Source of the DNA: Pedobacter chitinilyticus
GTDB lineage: Bacteria; Bacteroidota; Bacteroidia; Sphingobacteriales; Sphingobacteriaceae
Assembly (NCBI RefSeq): GCF_003313385.1
Contig: NZ_QMHN01000008.1
Span: 1 to 64,000 of the forward strand
Reading direction: 5' to 3'
DNA: 64,000 nucleotides
The translations under genes were made by a program, and so were the position numbers. The notes beneath the pieces were generated by a model. It was not told where the DNA came from. It ran no database searches and saw only the letters and a list, made by a program, of their open reading frames with translations. This document shows, one piece after another, positions 18,800-61,547 of this stretch; position 1 is the first letter of the stretch, and the number at the start of each line of letters is the position of its first letter.

Positions 18800-19213
18800 T
18801 ATGTGTCTATGTGGTTATAAGTTTCCTTTAGTTTTAAAAAATCTATAAATGAACCACATAGACACATAGCAAACCCATAGCTTTAATAAATGGAGCTTAT
18901 TCTTCTTAAAGTCCTATGTGTCTATGTGGTTATAAGTTTCCTTTAGTTTTAAAAAATCTATAAATGAACCACATAGACACATAGCAAACCCATAGCTTTA
19001 ATAAATGGAGCTTATTCTTCTTAAAGTCCTATGTGTCTATGTGGTTATAAGTTTCCTTTAGTTTTAAAAAATCTATAAATGAACCACATAGGCACATAGC
19101 AAGCCCATAGCTTTAATAAATGGAGTTTATTCTTCTTAAAGTCCTATGTTTCTATGTGGTTATATTTCCCTTTATATTTAAAAATCTATAAATAAACCAC
19201 ATAGATACATAGG
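18800..19213. repeat. 115-bp tandem repeat, 3.6 copies, each with an 18-bp inverted repeat
   Basis: Units start at 18800, 18915, 19030 and 19145 (exact 115-base period); the fourth stops after about 70 bases. Each unit holds CTATGTGTCTATGTGGTT and, about 34 bases later, its reverse complement AACCACATAGACACATAG, so each can form an 18-bp stem. Copies 1 and 2 are essentially identical; copy 3 has single changes; copy 4 is the most diverged and its arms differ at the same paired position. It fills the gap between two convergent genes (stops at 18785 and 19243) and so may serve as a bidirectional transcription end. Confidence 0.92.
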
Positions 19214-19242
19214 AAAATGAATAGCGGCTAATCTTTGCTTTG

Positions 19243-55009: not shown

Positions 55010-55262
55010 AGCTAATCGGTTTTTCAACTATGATGTTAGTTATATTCAAATTCCATACGTATCCAAAAAAAAATTTCCGTCAGGTAAAATTGAGTATCCT
55101 AACGTAATTGAGCAAAAGTCTTCGGCAAGCAACATTTTAAAAATCCAGCCAACAAAACACACAAAAAAGATAAAAAACCATACAAAAATTGATTTTAAAG
55201 CATAAAAAATTATTTTTTTTAAGATTTTTAACAAAAAATCAATCAAAAACCACAAAATATTT

Positions 55263-58379: not shown

Positions 58380-59561
58380 ATGAGCGACAATAGGTACAAC
58401 CAGCGTGGCGTATCGGCATCTAAAGAAGATGTACACGCAGCCATCAAAAACATCGACAAAGGCATATTCCCTAAAGCATTCTGCAAAATCATTCCTGATA
58501 TACTGGGAAATGATGAAGCGTATTGCAACATTATGCATGCCGATGGCGCAGGAACCAAATCCTCTTTAGCTTATACTTACTGGAAAGAAACAGGTGATCT
58601 TTCTGTTTGGAAGGGCATTGCACAGGACGCGATCATTATGAATATTGATGACTTGATTTGCGTGGGTGCTACCGATCAAATTCTATTATCATCGACCATT
58701 GGTCGTAATAAAAATCTAGTGCCTGGTGAAGTGATTGCAGCCATTATTAATGGTACTGAAGAAATTTTGGCCGAGTTGAGAAATTTGGGCATCTCTATTT
58801 ACTCTACAGGTGGCGAAACTGCCGATGTGGGCGACTTGGTACGTACCATTATTGTTGATTCTACCGTAACTTGTCGCATGAAACGTGAGGAGGTGATCAG
58901 TAACGACAACATCAAAGCAGGCAACGTAGTGGTGGGCTTGGCTTCTTACGGAAAAGCGACTTACGAGAGTGAGTACAATGGTGGTATGGGTTCTAACGGA
59001 TTAACTTCTGCCCGTCACGATGTTTTTGAAAAATCTATTGCTACAAAATATCCTGAGAGTTTTGACCCTGGTGTTCCTTTTGATCTGGTATTTTCGGGTG
59101 GCAAGCAATTAACTGACCTTGTTCAAATTAGCGATACTGAGAGCATAACGGCTGGTAAATTGGTACTCTCCCCTACTCGCACCTATGCGCCTGTTATTAA
59201 ACAGATTTTAGATCAATACCGCTCGCAAATAGATGGTATTGTACACTGTAGTGGTGGTGCGCAAACGAAGGTGCTTCATTTTGTGAATGACGATGTTCAT
59301 GTGATTAAGGACAACTTATTTCCTATTCCGCCGCTATTTAAATTGATCCAAGAACAATCGGGCACTGATTGGAAAGAAATGTACAAGGTGTTTAATATGG
59401 GGCACCGCATGGAGCTTTATGTGCCTGCGGAAATTGCCGAGGATATTATTGCCATTTCTAAAAGTTTTAACATTGACGCCCAGATTATTGGTCGTGTGGA
59501 GAAAAGCGAACAGAAACAGGTGACTATTCATAGCGAATTTGGCGAATTTGTTTACAACTAG
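58380..59561 (+). CDS. purM: Phosphoribosylformylglycinamidine cyclo-ligase (AIR synthase)
   Basis: 393 residues. 'RYNQRGVSASKEDVHAAI' at the start, 'MHADGAGTKSSLAYTYW' (the ATP/phosphate-binding part), 'STGGETADVGDLVRTIIVDSTVTC', 'EYNGGMGSNGLTSARHDVF' and the C-terminal 'FNMGHRMELYVPAEIAEDII' are the AIR-synthase motifs in the variant usual in Bacteroidota. It closes FGAM to AIR, the fifth purine step, directly after PurL. A decayed copy of its last 150 bases lies about 1 kb downstream (60413-60554). Confidence 0.95.
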   Translation: MSDNRYNQRGVSASKEDVHAAIKNIDKGIFPKAFCKIIPDILGNDEAYCNIMHADGAGTKSSLAYTYWKETGDLSVWKGIAQDAIIMNIDDLICVGATDQILLSSTIGRNKNLVPGEVIAAIINGTEEILAELRNLGISIYSTGGETADVGDLVRTIIVDSTVTCRMKREEVISNDNIKAGNVVVGLASYGKATYESEYNGGMGSNGLTSARHDVFEKSIATKYPESFDPGVPFDLVFSGGKQLTDLVQISDTESITAGKLVLSPTRTYAPVIKQILDQYRSQIDGIVHCSGGAQTKVLHFVNDDVHVIKDNLFPIPPLFKLIQEQSGTDWKEMYKVFNMGHRMELYVPAEIAEDIIAISKSFNIDAQIIGRVEKSEQKQVTIHSEFGEFVYN

Positions 59562-59641: not shown

Positions 59642-59998
59642 TTATTTCTCTTCTCTTTCATTGACGATGGTCGCAGTAATGGCTTTGAGTTCACTTAATG
59701 GTGCTTTCATTAAGGTGTCTTTTAGGTTTAAACTGTCGGAAGCTTGTTTTTTTAGCTTAGCTAGAGGAAAGTTTTCTGGATAATGCTGTTCACTCTCTGG
59801 CAACCAGGTTAATAAATCGTTTGGTTCACATACTAATATCTCACATAGTTTCTCTATGTGATCTAATCTATAAACGCGGTTTTTTCCATTAATTAATAGG
59901 TTGGCTGCATGCCTCGAAAAGCCATTCTTTACCAAATAGGAAAAAGGCTTTTCTATGCCACGTATTTTAAATATAGGGTTGAGATTCAAGATAAGCAT
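59642..59998 (-). CDS. Cro/CI-type helix-turn-helix regulator
   Basis: 118 residues. 'YLVKNGFSRHAANLLINGKNRVYRLDHIEKLCEILVCEPNDLLTW' (read in part) is an XRE-type HTH in the short form common in Bacteroidota, where 'P.DLL.W' follows the recognition helix. The C-terminal 50 residues ('LAKLKKQASDSLNLKDTLMKAPLSELKAITATI') are helical. It lies in the opposite direction to purM, with a 21-bp tandem array beginning 82 bases upstream of its start. Not part of an operon. Its likely target is its own upstream region (inference). Confidence 0.85.
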   Translation of the reverse strand: MLILNLNPIFKIRGIEKPFSYLVKNGFSRHAANLLINGKNRVYRLDHIEKLCEILVCEPNDLLTWLPESEQHYPENFPLAKLKKQASDSLNLKDTLMKAPLSELKAITATIVNEREEK

Positions 59999-60079
59999 AG
60001 GTGTTTGTAAAATTTCATCAACAATATTGTTTAATGTACAAATTATTTGACAAACATTATAAGTGCAGTTAATAAAAAC

Positions 60080-60289
60080 ACAAACGCAGTGATTAATAAT
60101 ACAAACGCAGTTACTAATAATACAAACACAAGTGAAAAAAGTACAAACTATATTGATAATAATACAAACGCAGTTATCAATAATACAAATGCAGTTATTA
60201 AAAATATAAACGCAGTTACTAATAATACAAACACAGTTACCAATAACACAAACTCAGTTACCAATAACACAAACAAAATTTACTAAAGC
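60080..60289. repeat. Ten 21-bp tandem repeats upstream of the HTH gene
   Basis: Units start at 60080 and every 21 bases to 60269 without a single insertion or deletion. Each begins ACAAAC (two units with one change), most have GCAGTTA in the middle and end AATAAT or AATAAC. Partial units flank the array (ACAAAC at 60050 and at 60290). Read on the plus strand it is open for 79 codons from a TTG at 60047 to a stop at 60284 and would give a heptad peptide repeat (AVTNNTN). No ATG start or clear ribosome site exists, so I list it as repeat DNA. A 21-bp period equals two DNA turns. Confidence 0.93.
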
Positions 60290-60412
60290 ACAAACTAAGA
60301 TCATAATTTTAAGGTGCCAGTTATAAAGTTGGAGACTACTTCGTTCCTCGCAGTGACGAGCGTGTTCCATCTTTACGGATGGGCACAAATAAGTATCCCC
60401 ACTGGTGGTAAT

Positions 60413-60554
60413 GAATGAGGTTTATGTTCCTACCCCGAAATTACTGAGAATATTATCGACATTTCTAAAAGCGTTAACATCGACCCCCAGATTATTGGCA
60501 GTGTTGAAAATAGCGAAAAGAAACAGGTATTAATAGCGAGCTTGTTTACAACCA
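60413..60554 (+). pseudogene. Decayed duplicate of the purM 3' end
   Basis: The run from ATGAGGTTTATGTTCCTACC to CTTGTTTACAACCA aligns base for base with purM 59409-59561: shared stretches include ATTTCTAAAAG, CCCAGATTATTGG, AGCGAA and AAACAGGT. Translation gives 'VYVPTPEITENIIDISKSVN' and 'IDPQIIGSVENSEKKQV' against 'LYVPAEIAEDIIAISKSFNI' in PurM, then loses frame. The rest of purM is absent, so it is non-functional. Confidence 0.85.
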
Positions 60555-60692: not shown

Positions 60693-61547
60693 CTAACTCA
60701 ATTTCTTCTTAAATAAATCGATGGTGCGCTGCCAAGCTAATTTAGCTGCAGCTTCATTGTATCTGGTAGGCGACGTATCGTTGTTAAAGGCATGGTTTAC
60801 GCCTTCGTAAACATATAGTTGGTAATTGATGTTATTGGCTTTTAAAGCTTGTTCATAAGCGGGAATGCCGGCATTGATGCGTTCATCTAAACCGCCATAA
60901 TGCAATAGCAAACTGGCTTTGATGTTAGGCACTTCTTCTGCTTTTGCCTGCGACCCATAATAAGCTACCGCCGCATTTAATTGTGGATCGTTTACGGCAA
61001 GTTTGTTGGTCATGGCTCCGCCCCAGCAAAAGCCTACACAGCCCGTTTTGCCATTTCCTTGTGGGTGCGCTCTTAAAAAGGCTAGGGCTTTTAAATAATT
61101 CTGTAAGTTCTTTTCGGCGTCTAATTTACCGATCAGTTCCCTGCCTTTATTTTCATCGGCTGGTGTGCCACCAAATGGAGACAGTGCATCGACCCCTAAA
61201 GCCAAAAAACCTGCCATAGCAACCCTTTTAGTTACATCTTTAATATGCGGTGTTAGCCCTCTGTTTTCGTGGATGACTACTACCGTTCCTAACTTCTTCT
61301 TATTCCCTTTAGGCATGGCAAAAAGACCTGACATGTCGCCATCAGCACCTGGGAAGGTGATTTCTTCACTAAATACTTCATCATCTTTCACCGTAGCTGC
61401 TGCTGCATAATTGCTTTCTAAGGATGGCAATATGGTTAGCGCTAAGGCCGTGCTTCCCGTTAAAATAGCCAGCTTTTTCATAAATTCTTTACGACTAATT
61501 TGGCTGTGGGTGTACGAATCGTACAAGTTGATGATTTTTTGATCCAT
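60693..61547 (-). CDS. Exported dienelactone hydrolase-family protein
   Basis: 284 residues. After a leader 'SRKEFMKKLAILTGSTALALTILPSL' (Tat-like in shape but with only one Arg) the mature domain has the dienelactone hydrolase triad: Cys in 'VGFCWGGAMTNKLA', Asp in 'GGLDERINAG' and His in 'YEGVNHAFNN'. Early 'VVVIHENRGLTPHIKDVTKR' holds the conserved Glu. The same long N-terminal form is common in Sphingobacteriaceae. Substrate unknown; small lactones or esters are typical. Single gene; a run of direct palindromic repeats follows the stop. Confidence 0.9.
   Translation of the reverse strand: MDQKIINLYDSYTHSQISRKEFMKKLAILTGSTALALTILPSLESNYAAAATVKDDEVFSEEITFPGADGDMSGLFAMPKGNKKKLGTVVVIHENRGLTPHIKDVTKRVAMAGFLALGVDALSPFGGTPADENKGRELIGKLDAEKNLQNYLKALAFLRAHPQGNGKTGCVGFCWGGAMTNKLAVNDPQLNAAVAYYGSQAKAEEVPNIKASLLLHYGGLDERINAGIPAYEQALKANNINYQLYVYEGVNHAFNNDTSPTRYNEAAAKLAWQRTIDLFKKKLS

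Follow-up and report, generated by a model that had tools for sequence, protein, structure and literature searches.

A family of small HTH proteins in the Bacteroidota is often paired with upstream arrays of 21-bp repeats

Introduction

A long run of 21-bp repeats in front of the gene for a small helix-turn-helix (HTH) protein raises the question of what the repeats are: binding sites for the protein encoded beside them, the coding sequence of a peptide, a by-product of replication, or part of an element that spreads through genomes. The locus considered here lies in a window (the whole stretch of DNA analysed, 64,000 nucleotides) of Pedobacter chitinilyticus, taken from a contig of 234,753 bases. 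A preliminary description of this DNA had counted ten repeats and read them as an iteron-like or operator array bound cooperatively by the HTH protein. Below, the array and its gene are described, a family of related proteins is compared, and the possible functions of the pairing are weighed.

The array and the adjacent gene

The array (60065-60295), delimited by Tandem Repeats Finder, by the sequence itself and by self-match, consists of eleven 21-bp units in one register, and the consensus of the unit, read on the strand of the HTH gene, is AACTG.GTTTGTaTTaTTa.T. Tandem Repeats Finder reports 60065-60274 with a period of 21, 10.0 copies, 77% matches and 2% indels; a degenerate eleventh unit follows at 60275-60295. 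Written out in lines of 21 bases, the DNA keeps its phase throughout 60065-60295, and because this phase is constant the array is read as free of net indels. For the 600 bp upstream of the HTH gene, the self-match score peaks at lag 21 (115) and lag 42 (86); the next-best lag scores 12, and the maximum in 30 shuffles is 14 (lags 8-59). The first count was therefore one unit short, while the periodicity itself is real and the claim that the repeats run without an indel is confirmed in the sense that the register contains no net indel. The array starts 66 bp, rather than the 82 bases given at first, from the start codon of the HTH gene at 59998, and the intervening gap (59999-60064, minus strand, from the sequence; the family median is 67 bp) is presumably promoter and leader. 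The divergent arrangement that had been proposed also has to be revised: the dienelactone hydrolase (DLH) gene that lies past the array (60693-61547, minus strand; PF01738, E 3.4e-46) is co-oriented with the HTH gene, so that the array fronts the HTH gene alone and no divergent gene shares it. Elsewhere in the window, a 21-bp unit is present twice (55175-55216) in the gap preceding a glutamine synthetase III gene, and a 115-bp tandem repeat (3.6 copies, 95% matches) occupies 18800-19216.

The HTH gene (59642-59998, minus strand; identified by ORF, Pfam and AlphaFold) encodes a 118-aa DNA-binding protein of the HTH_26 (Cro/CI) type with a C-terminal helical extension. Its sole Pfam match is to PF13443 (HTH_26; E 5.9e-08, 33.3 bits against a cut-off of 22), an entry matched by 50 of 51 aligned family members, and NCBIfam returned nothing for it. 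The AlphaFold model (mean pLDDT 86.5) has five helices within residues 7-62; its Cro/CI-type domain leads into a short helix and then two longer ones (C-terminal helices 78-117). Structure alignment of residues 1-65 yields Cro/CI-type folds with Z up to 9.9; the best relatives are Stl of SaPI2 (Z 9.9), a Bacteroides fragilis DNA-binding protein (3bs3, 8.9) and CylR2 (8.5), aligned over residues 1-68 at most. A Foldseek search with the model gave no match at E <0.001. SaPI2 Stl, the best match in the PDB by both sequence and structure, was at first considered a telling relative on account of its many chains per PDB entry, and was dropped, since the HTH domain alone aligns. We infer that the helical tail mediates protein-protein contact.

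A family defined by protein and array

A protein search found a 55% relative within the genus of the window and several relatives in two other families. Among the first eight inspected, seven have upstream 21-bp repeats of differing unit sequence, the exception being L004. In a profile search, members of about 115 aa are recovered at E 1.8e-25 or better, and the next group, at 1.3e-10 and weaker, is made up of HTH_26 proteins without the aligned C-terminal part. The family is defined here by HTH_26 plus the C-terminal extension, aligned over about 115 aa, and by a 21-bp array within 600 bp upstream; the window protein and its array show both features (alignment over about 115 aa; score 115). 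In the window's order, members turned up in 13 of 400 genomes (the window genome counted); another class has them in 7 of 294 genomes and a further order in 25 of 149. Two small orders have members in 6/7 and 7/9 of their genomes, with at most five matches per genome, some of these multiple matches being second domains within one ORF. Two HTH domains per ORF occur in L101, L105, L108 and L110 (order of G068), with clear arrays at L101 and L110. A survey of named records comprises 54 loci, of which 53 are titled Bacteroidota and one is an Ignavibacteria MAG. The window genome is grouped in one genus with G016, G653 and G587, which match the records of Pedobacter boryungensis (L173), P. planticolens (L187) and P. 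soli (L186), respectively.

The most constant property of the family is the period of the array. After repeated or short regions were removed, 128 distinct upstream regions remained. A score of at least 18 is reached in 90 of these at lag 21, in 88 at lag 42 and in 76 at lag 63, and in at most 3 at any other lag between 10 and 70. Downstream of the genes, a lag-21 repeat is present in 1 of 126 regions. Ordinary HTH_26 (PF13443) regulators, which share the Pfam family and DNA-binding fold of the window protein and are mostly open frames of 70-110 aa without the aligned C-terminal part, served as a control: against 90/128 in the family, lag-21 upstream repeats (scores 19-20) precede 3 of 43 of these genes (44 before one with a short upstream region was removed), so short 21-bp repeats are not exclusive to the family. 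In the named loci an array is present in 44 of 53, L219 having been left out of the 54 because it has 100 bp upstream; in a further set, 86 rows were reduced to 81 by leaving out the second domains L106, L107, L109 and L111 and the broken gene L073. The median array has 9.3 units and ends 67 bp before the ATG (85 arrays). Two loci, L076 and L207, may have a 20-bp period, with lag 20 or 40 highest.

The preliminary description had named a regulator without an array in related strains as evidence against an operator, and such members exist. In a tree from which repeated proteins were also removed (122 distinct proteins, 85 with an array), the array label needs 21 changes, compared to 31.8 in shuffles, and 37 of the 122 have no clear array; 16 of these 37 fall in one clade of 18 (order of G220). 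Judged by eye, this array-poor clade retains weak TTTGnnnTTTT sites. In the same clade, a conserved dyad, TTATnCACAnnTGTGnAA, lies about 90 bp upstream of the start codons of L112-L130; it resembles a DnaA box. As judged from sequence comparison, then, the pairing with a 21-bp array is a family trait that recurs in many Bacteroidota relatives, with a unit sequence that differs from lineage to lineage.

Core, spacer and co-variation with the protein

Insight into what is held constant within the unit comes from 12 pairs of orthologs (6/6 of a first set and 6/10 of a second set, in which the register was picked for best match). Identity of the spacers is 0.45-0.85 between same-numbered units and 0.26-0.33 between other units, and identity of the cores between other units is still 0.72-0.93; because the same units served to define the core and spacer columns, the independent part of this result is the contrast between same and other units alone. 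Since spacers match only unit by unit and cores match across units, the units are old and have not been homogenised, and consequently their common core and exact length need another cause. The simplest such cause would be purifying selection on the site and on its helical phase. The possibility that each unit consists of two equal half-sites was rejected, as column conservation shows no second peak near lag 10 in its mean circular autocorrelation.

The sequence of the unit also changes along with the protein. Among 77 distinct proteins with strong arrays, mean array similarity is 0.27-0.29 below 35% protein identity and 0.72 at 75-95%, and an opposite-strand control rises from 0.28 to 0.38 only. 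The Mantel rho between arrays and proteins is 0.254, a value reached in 0 of 1000 permutations; below 60% protein identity rho is 0.20, against 0.12 for the opposite-strand control. Not every pair follows this trend. Against L172 (55% identical), the closest relative that has a strong array, the window array reaches a similarity of 0.27, which is background, and L060 and L062, at 64% protein identity, have an array similarity of 0.30 only. The rise of unit similarity with protein identity agrees with co-evolution of protein and site, and common descent would contribute to it.

We favour, and consider probable, an explanation in which the array provides the protein of the adjacent gene with some eleven binding sites in a row, phased and probably occupied cooperatively. 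Each 21-bp unit would combine a single sequence-specific core with a spacer that matters by its length and not by its sequence. As 21 bp amounts to two helical turns, the bound proteins would lie on one face of the DNA, where they could touch, and binding to successive units would be cooperative, perhaps through the C-terminal helices. The protein may thereby repress or buffer its own promoter, it may occupy distant arrays as well, and the gene together with its array could be gained as a compact block.

Possible gain and movement of the gene and its array

The surroundings of the window locus bear on such a gain. The left neighbour of the HTH gene is an AIR-synthase-related (PurM-like) gene (58380-59561, plus strand; Pfam AIRS, AIRS_C), and a second fragment of the 3' end of this gene (60417-60539, plus strand), 79.5% identical by self-match to 59412-59536, sits at the right edge of an extra segment that includes the HTH gene and the array. 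The PurM-like locus was compared in 12 relatives, none of which has DNA there that matches the HTH gene; within the flank that was fetched, DLH is the next gene after the PurM-like gene in 8 of the 12 and is not in the other 4. The gap between the two genes is about 820 bp in L149, and in L153 it contains a 21-bp array of another core. A 21-bp array of unrelated core is found in this gap at L275 (4433-4612; G653), the same gap that the HTH gene and array occupy in the window.

Shared blocks were delimited among four MAGs whose proteins are 97-100% identical. The three pairs that involve L185 share 578-586 bp, extending from the outer end of the array to 12 bp beyond the stop codon; the other three pairs share up to about 400 bp more downstream, and upstream flanks are unrelated in 6/6. 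In some cases, then, array and gene are shared as a block of about 0.58 kb with unrelated flanks. In L178/L180 and L209/L211 the gene is shared and little else. Similarity extends for 3-5 kb around the gene in L189/L191, L175/L176/L177 and L206/L208, so that in these the neighbours have been kept. Among 97 neighbouring ORFs, 81 are singletons. A search for a conserved neighbour or operon partner yielded none that is widespread, and the upstream neighbours point away in 14/48.

These observations bear on a reading that we regard as possible, if doubtful, in which the HTH gene and its array are a mobile or genome-colonising element, a selfish satellite, and binding serves the spread or upkeep of the array rather than host regulation. 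The sharp edges and unrelated flanks of the blocks in the L185 pairs, the gene-only or gene-plus-array blocks of L178/L180 and L209/L211, the singleton neighbours, and the extra segment beside the duplicated PurM fragment, missing in relatives, all agree with it, as does the grouping of proteins from distant families (some of them from MAGs) with those of Pedobacter where the tree is weakly resolved. However, the module has no transposase or integrase, and the surroundings kept over 3-5 kb speak against general mobility. As to a vehicle, no protein match was found in 72,556 plasmid records, no relative was found among the 133 IMG/VR stretches fitting the two peptide patterns used, and phages gave two weak HTH matches at 39% coverage (Listeria phages); on the strength of these searches an origin from a plasmid, phage or virus was set aside. 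The selfish reading does not exclude the explanation by a row of binding sites, with which it is compatible.

Arrays elsewhere in the genome

The window genome contains at least three further arrays, located by pattern search. With the window unit as the pattern, one was found near 340 kb on contig C3; a three-site AACTNC pattern found those at 459 kb on C3 and at 53 kb on C8. (It should be kept in mind that the trans-array pattern was derived from the home core and covers arrays of that core only.) The home array and the three trans arrays, on contigs C3, C8 and C9, have AACTGCG...GTA..AT in common; the arrays keep their own spacers, and two of them show higher-order repeats of 42 or 63 bp, a feature that would also suit a selfish satellite. 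As one family gene alone was found in this genome, the three trans arrays stand without one. Their settings are a gap between a sigma-factor-like gene (Pfam score just below the cut-off) and a lipoprotein-like gene, a gap flanked by a DUF3467 gene and one named by eye as rpoC, and a position adjoining the gene of a 247-aa protein that belongs to no known family. The trans arrays whose surroundings were read are placed between co-directional or convergent genes, with one in a divergent gap. These orientations make a poor fit to plain promoter operators, and the placement would also allow a structural or selfish role.

The AACTNC pattern was also run against 145 congeners, of which 15 have a match, with clear arrays in G000, G016, G653, G570 and G052. 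The first three all carry the HTH gene with an AACTNC home core. Those of G570 and G052 are 21-bp arrays of another core, and a search of these two genomes found no family gene, which refutes the idea that every 21-bp array is tied to a family HTH protein. Short AACTNC arrays are present in G564, which carries the HTH gene, and in G708; the three matches of G018 and the single matches of eight other genomes (G564 included) are isolated or coding-looking by eye. In the three-site search described above, the ratio of matches to control among the matches listed is 65:5 in G000, 25:7 in G016 and 32:11 in G653; in most other genomes of that search the matches are about as many as the control matches or fewer, and many of the trans matches listed stand alone or belong to 7-bp-type repeats. 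In the search of the congeners, the reversed control pattern matched G027 18 times and G034 5 times, so unrelated repeats with a spacing compatible with 21 do exist. The trans arrays of G016 have little beyond AACT.C in common with the home array, and the trans-array core of G671 is not clearly its home-array core. Some trans arrays have a 7-bp substructure, by eye, and these may be of different origin. In G220, which belongs to a different family, the home unit recurs once on another contig, near the contig end, and no family gene was seen by eye within the 6 kb read around this second array. The two genomes nearest to the window genome by PurM-like protein (97%; G780 and G017, from 119 congeners searched) are without the family gene, and the pattern search found no array in the first and one isolated match in the second.

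Several other genes lie beside 21-bp arrays. Proteins of 247-248 aa, designated GHAKN (L265 5561-6304, L267 4511-5257, L272 4618-5364, L278 3951-4694), are encoded in all four copies met by a gene with a 21-bp array immediately on its 3' side, a biased count because the copies were found through the arrays. Three of the four were scanned, with no Pfam match and weak NCBIfam/PHROG matches; the best of five models, at pLDDT 84.9 (44-69 for the other four), is an all-helical bundle in two parts, for which the PDB gave no match at E <0.001. Proteins of 177-178 aa, designated CKNP and alike by eye, have an upstream 21-bp array in three genomes (L273 3590-4126, L279 5691-6227, L280 3349-3882). A possible second class of partner occurs in G570, a genome that yielded no family member: array and gene at L276 (5053-5335 and 5508-6155) are a 21-bp array on the 3' side of a 215-aa gene whose start is HTH-like by eye.

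Taken together, the comparison, which is one of sequences, shows the pairing, the invariant period, the contrast between core and spacer, the family-wide co-variation of unit and protein, and the same core in trans. The first four of these speak for the operator or iteron-like array of the preliminary description; the last agrees with the explanation favoured here, and further arrays elsewhere in the genome mean that a simple local operator would not be a full account. A broader proposal, which we put forward as more speculative still than the selfish element, is that these are a Bacteroidota counterpart of satellite DNA: solitary HTH proteins, each matched to a fast-changing 21-bp satellite of its own, would travel as a module of about 0.6 kb and seed arrays at other places in the genome (with higher-order repeats of 42 and 63 bp), and the protein would coat these arrays to organise or exploit the chromosome, not to regulate particular genes.

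A role in chromosome organisation proper, in which the protein would link dispersed arrays in space after the manner of a centromere or macrodomain system, seems unlikely. Four arrays of one core on C3, C8 and C9 (the trans ones among the matches listed) would be appropriate for it, as would their location in gaps regardless of promoter direction, but no neighbour gene recurs widely, and the sporadic occurrence of the family (13/400 genomes of the order) argues against a core role.

It is highly improbable that the repeats arose by neutral replication slippage, with their place beside the gene being incidental. Arrays of 21 bp do occur without a family protein, as do short repeats beside the 3/43 ordinary HTH_26 genes, and the 7-bp substructure noted above would agree with it; yet slippage would have to account for the concentration of upstream repeats at 21 (90/128) with almost none at other periods and 1/126 downstream, and for units that are old and unhomogenised with cores that are still alike. 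Finally, the expressed heptad-repeat peptide that had been offered as the alternative can be dismissed for the family as a whole: the plus-strand frame is indeed open for 79 codons without an ATG in the window, starting from TTG (60047-60286), and a similar frame runs through the L171 trans array, but across the family (51 rows with a score of at least 18) none of the six frames is open in 25 of 51 arrays, and codon-position bias is found at p<0.05 in 2/51.

Relation to known systems

Searches of the literature, with preprints and most subscription journals outside their scope, found no description of this pairing of HTH protein and array. Several systems resemble it in part. In plasmid iterons, direct repeats some two helical turns long lie close to the gene whose product, the Rep initiator, binds them; the window protein, by comparison, is a 118-aa Cro/CI-type HTH protein that matches Pfam HTH_26 only and no Rep family. 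In REP/REPIN systems a single-copy RAYT gene has repeats on its flanks, and further copies of these are scattered over the genome; RAYT, however, is a nuclease, whereas the window protein shows only an HTH domain and a helical tail.

BldC of Streptomyces is a small regulator that forms head-to-tail oligomers on direct repeats, with sites of variable length (PMC5859096). It is MerR-like and not of the Cro/CI type; the window protein matches HTH_26 and Cro/CI folds, and the abstract of that report does not mention a long array of fixed period tied to its own gene (PMC5859096). StbA of plasmid R388 is a DNA-binding protein with direct-repeat arrays in its own promoter region: this promoter contains the stbDRs, two sets of five 9-bp repeats with two-nucleotide spacing, and the motif is present in fewer copies in other promoters (PMC3098194). 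As described there, StbA is plasmid-borne, has an 11-bp period and is encoded in an operon with stbB and stbC (PMC3098194). The gene studied here is solitary and apparently chromosomal, and the period is 21 bp.

Significance

In this family a presumed DNA target is present in about ten copies beside the gene of its own protein, varying between lineages while the spacing stays fixed, and it would thus constitute a natural experiment in protein-DNA specificity. Each of the 77 distinct proteins with strong arrays gives a protein and its presumed site together, and from such pairs a recognition code for Cro/CI-type proteins may be learnable. The arrays of the same core elsewhere in the genome raise the further question of whether bacteria, too, have selfish or structural satellites.
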